In this document: positions 23,392 to 32,231 of the stretch, in pieces
Numbering within the stretch: the stretch's first letter is position 1
Layout: each line of letters opens with the position of its first letter
Source: Saprospiraceae bacterium
GTDB lineage: Bacteria; Bacteroidota; Bacteroidia; Chitinophagales; Saprospiraceae
Assembly (NCBI GenBank): GCA_019694255.1
Contig: JAIBCI010000086.1
Coordinates: 1-54,650 of the forward strand
Direction: 5' to 3'
Length of the DNA stretch: 54,650 nt
Translations under genes and position numbers: made by a program
The notes under the pieces: generated by a model
The model's input: the letters and a program-made list of their open reading frames with translations, nothing else
What the model was told of the DNA's origin: nothing
Database searches by the model: none

Positions 23392-23440
23392 TTCACAATA
23401 TTAATTCTTGTAGCACTCTGGTTTATGATCTGATTCTATT

Positions 23441-23449
23441 TTTTTCACA
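23441..23449 (+). promoter_or_regulatory. DnaA box 1 (TTTTTCACA)
   Basis: Matches TTWTNCACA exactly. It lies 15 bases from the next box in the same orientation, in the candidate origin spacer. Confidence 0.5.
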
Positions 23450-23455
23450 TTTGTT

Positions 23456-23464
23456 TTTTCCACA
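23456..23464 (+). promoter_or_regulatory. DnaA box 2 (TTTTCCACA)
   Basis: Matches TTWTNCACA and differs from the classic TTATCCACA by one base. It is in tandem with box 1. Confidence 0.55.
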
Positions 23465-23608
23465 ATGTATAATGATGTGTTATTGTATTATCCTTTGAAG
23501 TGGTAATGAGGATTTTTTCAACAATTGAATGTGCCTTTCTCGCTTAGACTTATTCATAAAATTTATATATTAGATATTTTGATGTGTAAGTGAAGCTTGA
23601 TGGTTTGA

Positions 23609-23617
23609 TGTGGCTAA
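23609..23617 (-). promoter_or_regulatory. Possible weak DnaA box (TTAGCCACA)
   Basis: On the minus strand it differs from TTWTNCACA at one position (G for T). Low-affinity boxes are common in origins, but this could be chance. Confidence 0.3.
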
Positions 23618-23747
23618 AATTTTTAATAATCAAACAAATAATCAACAAGTAATTACTAACAGAATTCTTTTGTTAATAACATACATTATCTTGATTATAA
23701 ATAATTTAAAATGTTTATAATTTGTTGGTAATTTAATTTATTCATCA

Positions 23748-23756
23748 TTATTCACA
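23748..23756 (+). promoter_or_regulatory. DnaA box 3 (TTATTCACA)
   Basis: Exact TTWTNCACA match, one base from TTATCCACA, inside the most A+T-rich part of the spacer and in the same orientation as boxes 1 and 2. Confidence 0.55.
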
Positions 23757-23870
23757 TTTCAACAGCCCTTGTTATTTATGGTATATTTTTAATTTATATT
23801 TTAAAATAATAAAAGTGATTATTGTTTTTGGGTAGTTGTTTGAATCAAATTTAAGCTGGAATATTGCACC

Positions 23871-24993: not shown

Positions 24994-25758
24994 ATGAATT
25001 ATCAAGTTAAGGAAGAAGGAAAGTTCAAATATCTTGAGTCGCGACCGGATGGAGAAGTGGTTATGCTTCTTCATGGTCTTTTTGGCGCATTAAGTAACTT
25101 TTCAGGAATTATTGATGCATTTGGGCCGTCTTATCGCATAATAGTCCCGATTCTTCCGATTTATGATTTGCCGATCCATCAAGTTAGTCTGGATGGTCTG
25201 GTCAGACATGTGAAGGATTTCGTTAAGTTCAAGTCTTTATCAGAGATTAACATATTAGGAAACTCACTGGGGGGGCATGTTGCATTGCTATATACCCTTG
25301 AAGAACAGGAAAAGATGAATTCGCTATGTATTACTGGTAGTTCTGGATTATTTGAGTCGGCGATGGGAAGTACTTTTCCTAAGAGAGGAGATTACGAATT
25401 TATCAAAAAGAAGACCGAAGAGACATTTTATGACCCAAAAGTTGCAACGAAAGAGCTCGTTGATGAGGTGTTTGAAATTACTACTGATCGCCTGAAGGCT
25501 ATACGAATTATTGCTACAGCAAAATCAGCCATCAGGCATAATCTAGCAGATAAATTATACAAAATTCATATACCCACGCTGATTATTTGGGGCCGGAATG
25601 ATATTGTTACCCCACCATTTGTTGGAGAAAAATTTCATGAACTTATAAAGGGTTCAGAGTTGTTTTTCCTGGATGAGTGTGGGCATGCGCCAATGATGGA
25701 AAAACCGGATACATTTAATAAGATTCTGTTAGATTTTCTGAATCGATGTAGAAAGTAA
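24994..25758 (+). CDS. Alpha/beta-fold hydrolase
   Basis: A 254-residue cytoplasmic serine hydrolase. The oxyanion-hole region is LLHGLFGALSNFS, the nucleophile elbow is GNSLGG, the acid follows IIWGRND, and the catalytic histidine is in ECGHAPMMEKPD. The closest general resemblance is to esterase/MhpC-like enzymes. The substrate cannot be inferred. It has its own -7 element, so it need not be expressed with ctaA. Confidence 0.85.
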   Translation: MNYQVKEEGKFKYLESRPDGEVVMLLHGLFGALSNFSGIIDAFGPSYRIIVPILPIYDLPIHQVSLDGLVRHVKDFVKFKSLSEINILGNSLGGHVALLYTLEEQEKMNSLCITGSSGLFESAMGSTFPKRGDYEFIKKKTEETFYDPKVATKELVDEVFEITTDRLKAIRIIATAKSAIRHNLADKLYKIHIPTLIIWGRNDIVTPPFVGEKFHELIKGSELFFLDECGHAPMMEKPDTFNKILLDFLNRCRK

Positions 25759-25819
25759 GAATTTTTCAGCGAAGAGGCAGCGTTATAAGGTTTGAAAGCA
25801 TCTTAAAATACCAGATGCC

Positions 25820-26365
25820 ATGCCATTTAGAGAGTTTGAAGATATTATCAATGGTTGTTTGGCGGGAGACAGTGCCAGCCAGAAAGCGCTCTTTATTCAT
25901 CTATCTGGGAAAATGATGGCGGTTTGTCTTAGATATTCGAGAGACAAGATGGAAGCGGAGGATTTGCTTCAGGAGAGTTTTATTAAGGTATTTACCAATC
26001 TAGGTTCCTACAAATTTGAAGGGCCTTTTGAATTGTGGGTTCGGAGAATAATTATCAATACTTCAATCAAGCGATACCATAAGATGAGTTACCAAAATGA
26101 AAGACCTTCCAGTGATATGATGCCGGATATTGAATTATCCGTGTCTGCCTTTGAGGGATTAGCTTATCAGGAGCTGATTTCGTTGGTTGAAGGATTACCT
26201 GACGGGTATAGAATGGTCTTTAATCTATATGCAATTGAGGGTTATTCGCATAAAGAGATATCCGACATGCTTAACATTAAAGAGGCAACCTCGCGATCCC
26301 AACTGGTTAAGGCACGATTGGTATTGCAGGAGAAATTAACTAAATATCAAAAAGTAGTTATATGA
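25820..26365 (+). CDS. ECF-type RNA polymerase sigma factor
   Basis: A 181-residue sigma-70 family factor with only regions 2 and 4. Region 2 is visible as CLRYSRDKMEAEDLLQESF and VFTNLGSYKFEG. Region 4 has a helix-turn-helix (GYSHKEISDMLNIKEATSRSQL). Its stop overlaps the start of the next gene (ATGA). That gene is therefore a candidate regulator or sensor, because ECF factors are usually controlled by a co-encoded membrane protein. The target promoters are unknown. Confidence 0.92.
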   Translation: MPFREFEDIINGCLAGDSASQKALFIHLSGKMMAVCLRYSRDKMEAEDLLQESFIKVFTNLGSYKFEGPFELWVRRIIINTSIKRYHKMSYQNERPSSDMMPDIELSVSAFEGLAYQELISLVEGLPDGYRMVFNLYAIEGYSHKEISDMLNIKEATSRSQLVKARLVLQEKLTKYQKVVI

Positions 26366-27771
26366 AATTTAAGGGAAATGATCACATGACAGATCGTTTT
26401 TTCAGGAAGAAATTAAAAGATTTGGATGTTGGATCTCAGGATCACCTTTGGGAGGGAATCGCTACCGTCTTGGAAAAGAACAAGAAATCGCATAAAATAC
26501 TTGCTTTCGGGTGGTTCACCCGGATGATTCTCCTGTTCACAATATTGAGTTTAGGTGTAATTCTAGCATATAAAACGAGAATAGAATCCAAGATTGATGA
26601 TAAAATAATCAAGAATACTGGTCCGTTTACAGCAGCGGCCGTGCAGAACAGGTTAGATATTTCAGGTCGCAGTGAGGGGGAAAGCGGAAGCGCAAGCACA
26701 TCATATTTAACTGATAATCAAACACTTAATAAATCTTTTGAAACCCAATCTCAAGCCTATAAGGGCAAAGATCACAAGAGCAAGTCCATATTGCCAAAGG
26801 CCAAAAGTGACAGATTAAGTTCAGACATGGGGCAAGTCTCAGGTGATGTGTTATCAAGCAATTTACAAACCGCAAATAATTCAAATTCTCAATCAAAAGA
26901 AAACGAATACTTGCGTTCACCTGAGTTTTCAGTACGAGCAGATGAACCAATAATGCAATTAGTGAATGATCACTTTTTATCAAAGGTGTTGTTTTCTTCT
27001 CAGCAAGGTACTGTTAAAAGTAAAAGAAGAATAAATGACGACTGTTTTAGCAGAAATGTGAGTCCATTGAAACATATAGACTTGGATATTTACTATGCAC
27101 CGGAAGTATCTATGAGAAGTCTTTCCGCAAGAACTGAAAGCGCCATACCCTATGCACAAAAGAGAGCAGGTGCTGAATCTTTTACGGGTTCCGGTTCGCT
27201 AGGAATCAGGGTTTCTTACGTTACTAAAAAAGGTATTGGTATCCGGAGCGGGTTGAATTATAGTAAAATTAATGAGCGATTTGAGTATTTTAACGGGTAT
27301 GACACAACCTGGACGATTGGATATGACCAAAACCATAATCCTATCGATACAACATTTAAATACAACGCAAGAATTCTGACAAAGCACAATAAATATAAAT
27401 TCACAGACATACCAGTATTGTTAACCTATGAAGTTAATCTCTCTGATTTTGTATTGTCATTTAATGGAGGACTAGGATTTAATATTTCCACCCAATCTAC
27501 CGGTCAGGTTTACTCGAATGATCAAATGTCTTTACTTGACTTAAGTAGTGCGGTGAGCGAATCAGGGTCAGAGAAAATTTATAAAAACAAGGTAGGAATG
27601 AGCATTATCGGAGGATTTGGGCTTAATTATAAGATTAATAGAAGGATAATGTTACTTGCAGAGCCTTCCGTCAGGTACTATTTAAGCCCTATAACTTCTG
27701 ATAGTTATGTGCTCAAGCAGAAATATCTTCAACTAGGAATCCTTACGGGGTTGCGTTACAGATTATACTAA
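26362..27771 (+). CDS. Membrane-anchored protein with C-terminal outer-membrane beta-barrel, coupled to ECF sigma
   Basis: A 469-residue protein of unusual layout. Residues 1-48 are charged and would be cytoplasmic. A single membrane helix follows at about 50-70 (FTRMILLFTILSLGVILAY), then about 160 residues of Ser/Asn/Lys-rich, apparently disordered linker. The last ~230 residues are predicted barrel strands (YYAPEVSM, GSLGIRVSYVTKKGIGIRSGLNYS, FVLSFNGGLGFN, ILTGLRYRLY) of the Bacteroidota outer-membrane beta-barrel type. The 4-base overlap with the ECF gene suggests that the cytoplasmic part could bind the sigma factor. A terminator follows. The function is inferred only from context. Confidence 0.7.
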   Translation: MKFKGNDHMTDRFFRKKLKDLDVGSQDHLWEGIATVLEKNKKSHKILAFGWFTRMILLFTILSLGVILAYKTRIESKIDDKIIKNTGPFTAAAVQNRLDISGRSEGESGSASTSYLTDNQTLNKSFETQSQAYKGKDHKSKSILPKAKSDRLSSDMGQVSGDVLSSNLQTANNSNSQSKENEYLRSPEFSVRADEPIMQLVNDHFLSKVLFSSQQGTVKSKRRINDDCFSRNVSPLKHIDLDIYYAPEVSMRSLSARTESAIPYAQKRAGAESFTGSGSLGIRVSYVTKKGIGIRSGLNYSKINERFEYFNGYDTTWTIGYDQNHNPIDTTFKYNARILTKHNKYKFTDIPVLLTYEVNLSDFVLSFNGGLGFNISTQSTGQVYSNDQMSLLDLSSAVSESGSEKIYKNKVGMSIIGGFGLNYKINRRIMLLAEPSVRYYLSPITSDSYVLKQKYLQLGILTGLRYRLY

Positions 27772-27795
27772 CGATAGGAAGATCTACTTTTTTGA

Positions 27796-27823
27796 GCCTG
27801 GCCAGATTTGGCCGGGCTTTTTT
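27796..27823 (+). terminator. Rho-independent terminator after the ECF operon
   Basis: A G+C-rich stem of 9 pairs (GCCTGGCCA with TGGCCGGGC, one G-T pair) has a four-base loop and is followed by TTTTTT. It ends the ECF sigma/barrel operon. Its T tract runs directly into the first parS site. Confidence 0.85.
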
Positions 27824-27838
27824 GTTTCACGTGGAACA
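27823..27838 (+). other. parS site 1 (ParB-binding centromere-like site)
   Basis: The 16 bases TGTTTCACGTGGAACA read TGTTCCACGTGAAACA on the other strand, an exact match to the conserved bacterial parS consensus TGTTNCACGTGAAACA. An identical copy lies 51 bases to the right, between the terminator and the next gene. parS sites are bound by ParB (Spo0J) and usually cluster near the replication origin. parA and parB are not in the window. Confidence 0.88.
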
Positions 27839-27873
27839 AATAGGATATAAATATTACTAAACTACACGATATT

Positions 27874-27889
27874 TGTTTCACGTGGAACA
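27874..27889 (+). other. parS site 2 (ParB-binding centromere-like site)
   Basis: A second perfect copy of the same 16-base parS sequence in the same orientation, start to start 51 bases from the first. The 35 bases between the two are A+T-rich and unlike each other, so this is not a simple tandem duplication of a longer unit. It lies 26 bases before the next gene. Confidence 0.88.
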
Positions 27890-27914
27890 GGTTAGTGTCT
27901 TAAAGGGGTAATTG

Positions 27915-28427
27915 ATGTCGTCGAAAATCAAAGGGTCATTTACACTTGAAAAATTTGGGCAAAAGGGCGAAAAAACAGGATGGACCTATATTCATTTAAC
28001 TAAAGAAATGGCCCAGGTCCTTTTTCCAGATAACAAGAAATCCTTTAGGGTTAAATGTACGATTGACAATCAAAAAGATTTAGAAATCAGTACATTGCCT
28101 ATGGGTGCCGGGGAATTTATTATACCAGTCCGAAAAGACCTTCAAAAGAAACTTGGGAAATCAGCTGGTCAAGAGGTCGCAATGGTTATCGAACTATGCA
28201 GACATGATTACGTATTGAATAAGGATTTTGTTGATTATCTTGAGACAGACGCAAATGCGTTATCATTCTTCAATAAACTAACGGGATCACATCAGCGGTA
28301 TTTTTCAAAATGGATCGATTCGGCGAAAACGACACAAACACGGGTAGAAAGAATTGCGCGCGCGGTTAACGCCCTTTCAAGAAAACAGGGTTATGTAGAA
28401 ATGATACGAAGCCGAAAAACAACGTAA
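27915..28427 (+). CDS. DUF1905 / YdeI-OmdA-like protein
   Basis: A 170-residue cytoplasmic protein. The N-terminal ~95 residues match the DUF1905 pattern (GWTYIHLTKEMAQVLFP, PMGAGEFIIPVRKDLQKKLGKSAGQEV). The C-terminal part matches the YdeI/OmpD-associated pattern (SFFNKLTGSHQRYFSKWIDSAKTTQTRVERIARAV). A TTG three bases upstream is also in frame, but the ATG at 27915, preceded by a purine-rich AAAGGGG, is the better start. Members are found widely but have no firm function. It is the first gene after the parS pair and ends against a convergent gene. Confidence 0.75.
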   Translation: MSSKIKGSFTLEKFGQKGEKTGWTYIHLTKEMAQVLFPDNKKSFRVKCTIDNQKDLEISTLPMGAGEFIIPVRKDLQKKLGKSAGQEVAMVIELCRHDYVLNKDFVDYLETDANALSFFNKLTGSHQRYFSKWIDSAKTTQTRVERIARAVNALSRKQGYVEMIRSRKTT

Positions 28428-28438
28428 TTAGGTGATTA

Positions 28439-29305
28439 TCAATCACTTATCTTTTTGTGCTTCCAGCGTTTATGTGACCAAAGCCAATTGGATGGTTCGC
28501 GGCGTATGGTCCTTTCCACTCTTGACATAAATAACTGTGTGAGCTCTCCAGGTGCCAGTTCATTCGGATTTTCACATAGCACCTCCAAATTAACAACATA
28601 TCTTGAATCAGTCACTCGCTGTTGATCAAGATAAATGACGGGCAAATGATATCTGTTGGCATACTTTTCAAGACCATGAAGACAAGCAGTATCCTGTCCA
28701 AAAAACTTAACCCAGATCGCATCACGTGTATTGGAGGGATTTTGGTCAGACATCAATAATATTACACGGCCATCAGGAATTAGAGACTCCATCATACGGG
28801 TATGTCGTGTACTAATTAACGTCATTGTGCATTTGGCTCTAAGGGATTTTATGTATTCTTCAAGATACCGGTTGCCAATTTCTTTATAGATTCCAATGCT
28901 TTTATTTTTGTATGTGTACCCAGTAGCCAGAACCGTCCACTCCCAGTTTGTATAATGAGGACAAACAGCCAGTACGGACTTCTTTTTATCCAGATAATCC
29001 GTGATCAGTTCAGGCTGCCTGAATTCAATTCGTGACAGAAGTTCAGCTTCAGATAAAGTAAGACCCTTGATAGCCTCCAACAACACAAAAGACAGATTGT
29101 CATATACCCCGCCAACGAGACTGTTTACTTCTGCCGCAGTTAAGTTAGTAATACATTTACTCAAATTCCGGTGAATTACAGCCAGCCTGTATCGTACAAA
29201 ATAATGGAGAAAAAAACTGAGAAGGCGACTTAACGGACTTAAAAAGGCAAAAGAAATTCGTGTGAATGAAATAATGACGATCCGAACCAACCAGAATTGC
29301 AACAT
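28439..29305 (-). CDS. Lipid A acyltransferase-like protein (LpxL/HtrB family)
   Basis: A 288-residue inner-membrane acyltransferase with an N-terminal hydrophobic segment. The catalytic H-x4-E motif is in HYTNWEW (about residue 116), followed by the LMSDQNPS segment and a C-terminal SNWLWSHKRWK typical of LpxL/LpxM homologues. It probably adds a secondary acyl chain to lipid A or an ornithine-type lipid. It is a single gene, convergent with the DUF1905-like gene and divergent from the GH92 gene. Confidence 0.87.
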   Translation of the reverse strand: MLQFWLVRIVIISFTRISFAFLSPLSRLLSFFLHYFVRYRLAVIHRNLSKCITNLTAAEVNSLVGGVYDNLSFVLLEAIKGLTLSEAELLSRIEFRQPELITDYLDKKKSVLAVCPHYTNWEWTVLATGYTYKNKSIGIYKEIGNRYLEEYIKSLRAKCTMTLISTRHTRMMESLIPDGRVILLMSDQNPSNTRDAIWVKFFGQDTACLHGLEKYANRYHLPVIYLDQQRVTDSRYVVNLEVLCENPNELAPGELTQLFMSRVERTIRREPSNWLWSHKRWKHKKISD

Positions 29306-29343
29306 ATTAGGTGCAAACCAACAAAAAAAATACTAACCGGATT

Positions 29344-29351
29344 TACCTTTG
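29344..29351 (+). promoter_or_regulatory. -7 promoter element (TACCTTTG) of the N-glycan operon
   Basis: TACCTTTG matches TAnnTTTG and ends 9 bases before the GH92 start codon. The predicted leader is only about 4 bases, so the mRNA would be essentially leaderless. Confidence 0.6.
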
Positions 29352-29360
29352 GAAATTTGA

Positions 29361-32231
29361 ATGAGAAAAATATTTATTGCAATCAGTCTTCTTAGCCTAA
29401 CCGACCCCATTCAGGCACAGCATCACCTTGAGGTAAATCCATTTATTGGCACAGGAGGGCATGGACATACCTTTCCTGGCCCGGTCATGCCTTTCGGGAT
29501 GGTACAATTAAGTCCGGATACAAGAACCGAAGGATGGGATGCTTGCTCAGGATATCACTACTCGGACACCACGTTACTTGGTTTCAGCCACACACATCTT
29601 AGTGGTACTGGCGTTGGTGATTATTGTGACATTTTGGTAACACCACGATCTATGACAAACATAGATTTTTATAAAACTGAAAATTTAATTACGCCAATAC
29701 ATTTCAAAAAATCTGAGGAGAAGGCTCATGCAGGATTCTACCAGGTTAGACTCGATCAAGAGAATATTATAGCCAGGCTTACAGCAACAGATAGAACCGG
29801 TGTTCATGAATATCAATTTGATAAGGCCGGCACCAAAGTCATAGTGATTAATCTAAGACACAGGGATAAAGTATTGAAAGCATTTGTACACCAATCTGGG
29901 CCCAATACAATCAATGGCTGCAGGATCTCAAAAGGTTGGGCGAAAGAACAGCATGTATACTTTGCAATGGCGTTTTCTCAAAAAATTTCAAAGGTTAGTT
30001 ATAGTGAAGATTCTCTTATTATGACACTATTTTTTGAAAAACAAAAGGCCAAGAAGATTACGCTGCAATGTGCAGTGTCACCGGTCGATATTTTAGGTGC
30101 TGAAAATAATCTTTACAGAGAATGGGTTTCATTTGATTTCAAAAAAGCACAAAAAAATTGTGAAGAAAGATGGGACAAAATGCTATCAAGAATTGAATAC
30201 GCTTCATCGCCGGACAGACAAGAAAAGAAGACCAACATATTTTATACTGCATTATATCATTCTCTGATTCATCCCAGCTTATCCCAGGATGCAGATGGAA
30301 GATACCGCGGTCTTGATCAAAAAATCTATCAGGCGGAAGGTCCCAATAAAAGATACACTGTATTCTCCCTTTGGGACACTTACCGGGCAGCACACCCATT
30401 GTATCAACTAGCTTACCCTGAATATAACTTGCAATTTGCAAAAACCTTTTTACAGCATTACAAGGAAGTCAAACGCTTACCGGTTTGGGAGCTTTCCTCA
30501 TGTGAAACATATTGTATGATAGGCAATCACGCAATTCCGGTTCTGGCCATGTGCTATTTGGATAGCACAAGAACACCAGGACTTAATTACAAAGATGTTT
30601 GCGAAGCAATTGAGGCTACATTTAATGCGGACTATTCTGACATTTCTTATTTTCTCGACGGATACATCCCGATGAATAAAGCTTCGGAATCTGTTTCAAA
30701 AAGTATAGAAAATAGTTTTGACTATTATGCGTATGATCTGGTAGCGGAAAGAAAGGGAAATGAAAAATACTATTACCGCAATCTTTTTAATCCCAACTCT
30801 GGTTTTTTGGAACCCAAAAGATCGGATCATTTTTTAAAATCTTTCAATCCCACCGAAGTTAATTTTAATTATACCGAAGCAAATGCATGGCAATATCTTT
30901 TTGGTGCACAGCATGACATTGAATGGATGAAAAAAAGTCTTCGGGTCCACGAAAGACAAATTGCAAAAACAAGATTAAATCTTAATTCGGAGCAAGCGTT
31001 CGAAAAAAGACTTGACAGTTTATTTACGACCAAGGTTCCAATGACTGGTCGCATACAACCGGATATCACAGGACTTATTGGACAGTATGCACATGGCAAT
31101 GAACCAAGTCATCACGTGGCATACCTGTACAATTACTGTAATCACACAGACAAAACCCAAAAGATTGTTAAGAAAATAATGAATGAATTCTATTCTGACC
31201 AACCGGATGGCTTATGTGGAAATGAAGATTGTGGTCAGATGTCAGCGTGGTATGTCTTGAGCGCCCTTGGTATATATCCTGTAGATCCGGTTAGTGGAAA
31301 ATTTACACTCGGGCTTCCTGCTTTTCAAAAAGCATCAATAGCGGTTCCTGGATATAAAATGATAAACTTGTCCTGCAAACACGATTCAAGCGACGGGTGG
31401 GTTAAGGAATTGATGATTAACGGAAACAAATGTACTGCGGACTTTTACATAAGACCCGGCGACCAGATTCAATTTTATCTTGACAAAAAAGGCGGCACCA
31501 TATGGAATAATAAACCAGTAGTTCCTGAAAAATACACCCTGTTGCCAACGTTAAAAACGGAAGAAGAGATATTTGAGGACAGTACTTATTTATCTTTTTT
31601 ACAAACGGGCGAGAACAGGATCGAATATTCCTTTGATACTGCCAACGATGTAACAATCTATTCAGTTCCGGTAGTAATAAATGAAAACAAAAAGATTTTT
31701 TACAGAAATAAAAATACTTCAGCGAAGTCCAGGGAGCAATGGAGAAGTATAGAGTTTAAGAAGAAACCCAATCAGCTTAGCTATAGCGTACAACAGCAGT
31801 ATGACAATCAGTATTCTGCCGGCGGTAAAATTGCATTGGCTGATGGTCTCACGGGGAGCAATGATTTTAGGGATGGTTTTTGGCAAGGATACTGGAACAC
31901 CGATATTGTTATAGACATAAAGAGAAATAACGATACATCGTCTTTGGGCGTGTCAGTTGGAATGATTCAGGATCAGGGTTCATGGATATTATTTCCTAGT
32001 AGACTGGAATTATATTCAACCCAGGACGGAAAGAATTATATACTCATAGAAACGATAGAAAATTCTGAACCGCAAGATACTCCCAACGGAATGCGAAAGA
32101 CTTTTCGTTTTTCCAAAGTTCCCGAGATGCAATTCAGAATCAAAATTGTTAATCCCGGAAAACTACCGGAATGGCATTTAAGCGCTGGCAACCCAAGCTG
32201 GATGTTCGTAGATGAAATTAAACTTGAATAA
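29361..32231 (+). CDS. GH92 family alpha-mannosidase
   Basis: A 956-residue secreted glycoside hydrolase with a signal peptide (about 1-19, ending IQAQ). GH92 signatures are at the N-terminus: VNPFIGTGGHGHTFPGPVMPFGMVQ-type sequence, GYHYSDTTLLGFSHTHLSG and GVGDYCD. The catalytic core includes FSLWDTYRAAHPLYQL and YAHGNEPSHHVAYLYN, then GNEDCGQMSAWYVLSALGIYP. A C-terminal beta region of about 200 residues, possibly carbohydrate-binding, follows the core. GH92 enzymes are calcium-dependent exo-alpha-mannosidases that trim mannose from N-glycans. The gene overlaps the following glycosylasparaginase, whose product completes N-glycan removal. Confidence 0.92.
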   Translation: MRKIFIAISLLSLTDPIQAQHHLEVNPFIGTGGHGHTFPGPVMPFGMVQLSPDTRTEGWDACSGYHYSDTTLLGFSHTHLSGTGVGDYCDILVTPRSMTNIDFYKTENLITPIHFKKSEEKAHAGFYQVRLDQENIIARLTATDRTGVHEYQFDKAGTKVIVINLRHRDKVLKAFVHQSGPNTINGCRISKGWAKEQHVYFAMAFSQKISKVSYSEDSLIMTLFFEKQKAKKITLQCAVSPVDILGAENNLYREWVSFDFKKAQKNCEERWDKMLSRIEYASSPDRQEKKTNIFYTALYHSLIHPSLSQDADGRYRGLDQKIYQAEGPNKRYTVFSLWDTYRAAHPLYQLAYPEYNLQFAKTFLQHYKEVKRLPVWELSSCETYCMIGNHAIPVLAMCYLDSTRTPGLNYKDVCEAIEATFNADYSDISYFLDGYIPMNKASESVSKSIENSFDYYAYDLVAERKGNEKYYYRNLFNPNSGFLEPKRSDHFLKSFNPTEVNFNYTEANAWQYLFGAQHDIEWMKKSLRVHERQIAKTRLNLNSEQAFEKRLDSLFTTKVPMTGRIQPDITGLIGQYAHGNEPSHHVAYLYNYCNHTDKTQKIVKKIMNEFYSDQPDGLCGNEDCGQMSAWYVLSALGIYPVDPVSGKFTLGLPAFQKASIAVPGYKMINLSCKHDSSDGWVKELMINGNKCTADFYIRPGDQIQFYLDKKGGTIWNNKPVVPEKYTLLPTLKTEEEIFEDSTYLSFLQTGENRIEYSFDTANDVTIYSVPVVINENKKIFYRNKNTSAKSREQWRSIEFKKKPNQLSYSVQQQYDNQYSAGGKIALADGLTGSNDFRDGFWQGYWNTDIVIDIKRNNDTSSLGVSVGMIQDQGSWILFPSRLELYSTQDGKNYILIETIENSEPQDTPNGMRKTFRFSKVPEMQFRIKIVNPGKLPEWHLSAGNPSWMFVDEIKLE

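Follow-up and report, generated by a model that had tools for sequence, protein, structure and literature searches.

The DNA analysed here, a stretch of 54,650 nucleotides from a Saprospiraceae bacterium (hereafter the window), contains two identical 16-bp sites within a 140-bp intergenic gap (27772-27911). Site 1 (27823-27838) and site 2 (27874-27889) both read TGTTCCACGTGAAACA on the minus strand, their plus-strand letters being TGTTTCACGTGGAACA, and match the parS consensus TGTTNCACGTGAAACA with no mismatch on the minus strand and one on the plus strand. This consensus reportedly goes back to Livny et al. in 2007. A related consensus, TGTTTCACGTGAAACA, is given in a Hi-C study of gut bacteria (PMC10197239). 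The two sites are spaced 51 bp start to start, with 35 bp between them, and the initial annotation, which had described two identical minus-strand parS matches 51 bases apart in an intergenic gap, proved exact in both position and sequence. When up to one mismatch to the 14-bp core GTTYCACGTGRAAC was allowed, the window yielded these two matches and no others, whereas shuffled sequences would give 0.02. The flanks AAATA and TATTT are complementary, such that the pair makes a 21-bp inverted repeat (27823-27889).

The gap is bordered by plus-strand genes. Upstream lies an operon comprising a gene for an ECF-type sigma factor (25820-26365; Pfam Sigma70_r2 and Sigma70_r4_2) and a gene coding for a 469-aa protein without any Pfam match (26362-27771), which ends before an intrinsic terminator (27794-27823, plus strand). 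A DUF1905/OmdA (YdeI-like) gene identified by Pfam (27912-28427) follows the parS pair. The terminator consists of a stem-loop (27794-27819) with 11 pairs, 7 of them G-C, and a loop of 4 bases, followed by a T run (27818-27823); the folding energy of 27786-27823 is -20.6 kcal/mol. A simple scan of positions 25000-30000 found 3 terminator-like sites against 3.2 in shuffled sequences, a count that proves nothing taken alone, and the one abutting parS is the strongest of the three. Judged by its sequence, a G+C-rich stem-loop and then a T run, the terminator is real. Its T tract had been described as leading directly into the first parS site, and the two indeed overlap by one base: the last T of the run is also base 1 of site 1.

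Within the draft genome (3,561,208 bases, 125 contigs, 99% complete), the exact 16-mer occurs twice, both copies being those of this pair. Core variants with altered outer bases are known from congeners, and the count of two refers to exact 16-mers. An additional place with 2 mismatches, on contig C64, was dropped as being at chance level, a backwards control giving 7 such matches. The genome also encodes the proteins expected to act on these sites. Adjacent parA and parB genes form a complete operon (L004:635-1405 and 1405-2298) with parA directly upstream of parB. ParA (256 aa) carries Pfam domain AAA_31 while ParB (297 aa) has the three domains ParB_N, HTH_ParB and ParB_C and is matched by solved ParB and Spo0J chains. 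A single ParB was found in the genome (C80:55610-56131; 174 bits, cut-off 58.45). The initial annotation would have given up its reading had parB been absent, or had many dispersed copies of the 16-mer been found with no origin bias; what was found is a parA-parB operon and two clustered copies, at a distance of some 4.4 kb from the minimum in GC skew.

This minimum, in the cumulative GC skew of the window, lies at 23463, in a 479-bp gap between the divergent genes dtd and ctaA (23392-23870) which we consider a candidate oriC. The 400-bp segment with the highest AT content in the window, 78%, starts at 23421, within the same gap; GC skew is mostly negative up to about 23-25 kb and mostly positive beyond, purine skew has its minimum at 25180, and gene orientation changes at the candidate origin. 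DnaA boxes are not enriched in this gap, which contains 3 near-matches (at least 8 of 9 positions), as many as another stretch of the window; consequently 23392-23870 is a candidate origin only. The motif TTATNCACA occurs 4 times in the window, 3.2 being expected by chance. The window likely contains the replication origin. The dtd/ctaA neighbourhood recurs in the congener G044 and in relatives L222, L227, L228, L231, L232, L234 and L241.

The gene dnaA itself is on another contig (C35). An origin at dnaA was considered and dropped in view of a near-complete relative, G057, assembled as one contig of 4,345,237 bases, in which dnaA starts at base 209, about 2 Mb from the skew change. Among 20 sampled stretches of that genome, skew is negative at 2.03 Mb and positive at 2.15 Mb, and its four parS sites, at 2.040-2.045 Mb, adjoin this change of sign; a stretch at 0.54 Mb has positive skew, opposite in sign to its neighbours. 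In G057 two parS cores fall within a DnaA-box array (L058:12850-13450) that packs 14 boxes (at least 8 of 9 positions) into 600 bp, origin and centromere being interleaved in this array. The Hi-C study of gut bacteria similarly reported that parS clusters lie at origins, where dnaA need not be found (PMC10197239), and our genome resembles those bacteria in that parS, not dnaA, marks the origin. In that study the origin was inferred from skew together with Hi-C, whereas here skew and synteny alone were used, and its relevant passages are silent on terminators.

All the testable defining features of a chromosomal parS were thus found at this locus or in its genome: the consensus, a ParB, parA beside parB, proximity to the origin, and few, clustered copies. 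Relatives, which we compare as one family that is probably Saprospiraceae, mostly share the system. ParB was found in 56 of 61 family genomes and the exact 16-mer in 49 of 61. No ParB match was obtained in four of these 49 (G005, G010, G019 and G039). Conversely, 11 of the 12 genomes without the exact 16-mer still have ParB (G022, G027, G028, G033, G034, G038, G042, G046, G050, G054 and G060), so the exact 16-mer is not needed in every relative; these 11 likely carry variant parS sites. Exact sites were also present within the genus (5 of 9 genomes), in a larger sample of the family (226 of 298) and in one of the phylum (225 of 296).

Gene order around the pair is the same in G044, where 12 window genes were recognised, from the dppC-mazG-dtd group to a GH92 gene and beyond. 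The corresponding gap reads ...GGGCCTTTTTTGTTTCACGTGGAACA (L164), the junction between terminator and parS being kept; the stem differs yet still pairs (-17.2 kcal/mol against -20.6 in the window), and a second parS with one outer base changed is found 152 bp further on. In three other congeners (G063, G064 and G065) parS lies among genes that match none of 32 window proteins; the place of parS is therefore not fixed even within the genus. Among 80 loci of named relatives that encode the neighbouring hydrolase, 5 contain a parS core. In one of these five, from a Lewinellaceae MAG (L222), the core immediately follows a terminator and is closer to the origin by one gene.

To place this arrangement in a wider frame, we surveyed parS neighbourhoods in two sets of genomes. 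The first set, drawn from matches listed in several samples, comprised 169 genomes, 131 genera and 382 sites, of which 54 genomes and 107 sites belong to the family and the remainder, 115 genomes and 275 sites, to other Bacteroidota; G053, with one exact site, was left out. One of the source samples of this set had been chosen for close pairs and pair frequency was not estimated from it. The hold-out set comprised, among the matches listed, 81 family genomes, 64 genera (18 of them also in the first set) and 169 sites, taken from the 226 genomes in which a match had been obtained. Terminators were scored with only the stem masked, in place of an earlier scan which hid any T run overlapping parS and thereby missed the terminator of the window. 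The scorer was written after the first set had been seen, so the P values of that set are post hoc, and it was applied unchanged to the hold-out.

The survey revealed that parS has a habitual place in this family. Altogether 178 of the 276 family sites, in 81 of 135 genomes, are linked to thrC (threonine synthase by both Pfam and NCBIfam): 66 inside its reading frame, 98 within 450 bp behind it and 14 otherwise near. Most family genomes examined have one site in the thrC frame and a second behind the gene; in L009, L024, L026, L330 and others this second site lies about 350-460 bp on. No thrC-linked parS was seen among the 275 sites of the 115 other Bacteroidota genomes. The pair in the window stands away from this usual place. 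That parS can tolerate transcription follows from the 66 family sites, out of 276, located within the thrC frame.

Across both sets, 44 of 276 parS sites (41 of 135 family genomes, 33 of 95 genera) lie in or abut a terminator-like hairpin; 30 of these 44 are behind thrC and 22 form the tip of a longer hairpin. In the first set, 11 of 107 sites lie no more than 12 bp from a terminator. Random positions would give 0.71 such sites, random intergenic ones 2.56, and random ones confined to the same gaps 4.39 (sd 1.61). Counted per gap and with the post hoc scorer, the observed number is 10 of 48 against 4.07 (P 0.0003), or 7 against 2.49 at a distance of at most 6 bp (P 0.0026). In the hold-out, 11 of 169 sites abut a terminator, against random expectations of 1.11 and 3.51. 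An excess over random placement in the same gap did not replicate there at P 0.05 (8 of 65 against 5.28, P 0.086; at most 6 bp, 4 against 3.49, P 0.48). Abutment is consequently common in the family but is mostly what sharing a gap gives. T runs counted at fixed offsets beside parS showed a weak excess. Of the 275 sites in other Bacteroidota, 1 abuts a terminator and 6 are hairpin tips.

The hairpin-tip class, in which parS sits in the middle of a longer inverted repeat whose arms have a net length of at least 8 bp, was replicated. In the first set 8 of 107 sites belong to it where 0.0 were expected; in the hold-out 14 of 166 do, where 0.15 were expected, the latter denominator leaving aside three sites at contig edges that have no arm score. 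Of the 22 tips, 17 are accompanied by a T-rich tail on at least one strand, compared with a proportion of 0.335 among 1079 random intergenic places. Of the 17 tips located behind thrC, 12 carry such a tail on the thrC-sense strand and 7 on the opposite one. Bidirectional intrinsic terminators occur between convergent genes, and L012, L323 and L330 resemble them in having a stem with an A run before and a T run after it; they differ in that the tip of the stem is the parS sequence.

We asked how the layout in the window is best read. The most likely reading, to which we give a probability of roughly 60%, is that the parS pair is the main ParB-loading site, or centromere, of the chromosome, that the terminator of the ECF operon serves as its insulator, and that the whole is a relocated copy of the family layout. 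ParB dimers would bind both sites, form closed CTP clamps and from there slide outward, and ParA would then move the origin region. The terminator would end transcripts of the ECF operon at the edge of site 1, such that RNA polymerase would rarely cross the loading site. In the family, parS typically occupies 3' gaps, chiefly that of thrC, often together with a terminator whose hairpin, in some cases, it caps; the pair in the window would be this 3'-gap layout transferred to another place. The locus resembles known chromosomal ParABS systems in its exact site, few copies, nearness to the predicted origin and parA-parB operon. Unlike these systems, however, it has its pair directly behind an intrinsic terminator, with an overlap of one base, and the family adds two further features, terminator-like hairpins tipped by parS and a customary location at thrC. 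In this reading the pair is an ordinary origin-proximal centromere; the insulating role is one we infer. Several findings weigh against the reading: the many relatives with parS within thrC, the same-gap comparison in the hold-out, the scarcity of abutting sites and hairpin tips outside the family, the lack of DnaA-box enrichment in the candidate origin, the positive skew at 0.54 Mb in G057 and the relatives that have ParB but not the exact 16-mer.

The neighbourhood of parS and terminator could also be a coincidence of habitat, parS being best tolerated in 3' gaps, which usually hold the terminator of the preceding gene, with no functional link between them. The non-significant same-gap control in the hold-out agrees with this explanation, as does the weight of a single inherited place behind thrC among terminator-linked sites. 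It leaves unexplained, however, the long inverted repeats centred on parS (22 of 276 where at most 0.15 to 0.3 are expected), the T-rich tails of hairpin tips, the same-gap excess of the first set, albeit obtained with a post hoc scorer, and the junction kept in G044. On balance we regard coincidence as unlikely, though the most serious competitor. The hairpins could instead point to an element of dual use, in which the parS palindrome is part of an RNA hairpin and DNA-bound ParB, serving as a roadblock, reinforces or regulates termination. The 22 parS-centred hairpins, 17 with a T-rich tail, and the distribution of these tails over both strands behind thrC speak for such an element. In the window, the two parS sites with their flanks can likewise pair as RNA, but this largely follows from the presence of two copies of one near-palindrome, and the terminator has a stem of its own, outside parS; we consider dual use improbable. 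That the sites serve a factor other than ParB, or are relics, is least credible and indeed very hard to reconcile with the exact consensus, the ParB present, the proximity to the origin and the same situation in many relatives.

Returning to the proposed insulated centromere, the junction kept in G044 and the recurrence of co-location in the family lend indirect support to the suspicion that contact between terminator and parS matters. A bolder proposition, which we put forward tentatively and rate below even odds by a clear margin, is that the family possesses composite parS/terminator elements, the palindrome either forming part of a terminator or directly adjoining one, in which transcription ends at the ParB-loading site, and that close parS sites across Bacteroidota are spaced by half-integral helical turns, placing two ParB dimers on opposite faces of the DNA. 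If true, the composite element would couple segregation and transcript ends in one DNA element. The layout bears on ParB loading alongside transcription near the origin. In some species of the family parS is found within a gene, in others it follows a terminator or tips a hairpin, and these natural pairs allow the idea of insulation to be tested by comparison. Titles and abstracts searched contained none on a parS/terminator layout or on parS spacing, most subscription papers falling outside the scope of the search; in the literature searched, parS layout in Bacteroidota is little examined.

Spacing was analysed for adjacent cores less than 73 bp apart; it peaks near 37-39, 46-47 and 58 bp, with 26 bp as the sole value below 33 bp. 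Phasing on half turns was evaluated with a period of 10.5 and a phase of 0.5, both chosen on the first set; for the 24 genus-by-distance values of the hold-out, P was 0.0008. Removal of similar spacers left P at 0.0006 to 0.0013 in the hold-out and, for genomes outside the family other than those of genus g75, at 0.0005 to 0.0009. For this removal, redundancy was cut at 0.70 to 0.80 without linkage, shuffled spacers reaching 0.69 at the 99th percentile; collapsing spacers at 62% identity by single linkage was abandoned as uninformative, having merged 120 of 156 unrelated AT-rich spacers. With the period left free, 26 of 4000 smoothed-null replicates of the first set did as well. In genus g75 phasing was absent (P 0.18 to 0.36, from 32 to 47 non-redundant pairs), and the pair in the window is itself off phase, 51 bp corresponding to 4.86 turns of 10.5 bp. 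Half-turn spacing, if it holds, predicts how two ParB clamps sit on DNA. Except in g75, the sites of close pairs in Bacteroidota lie about 3.5, 4.5 or 5.5 helical turns apart.
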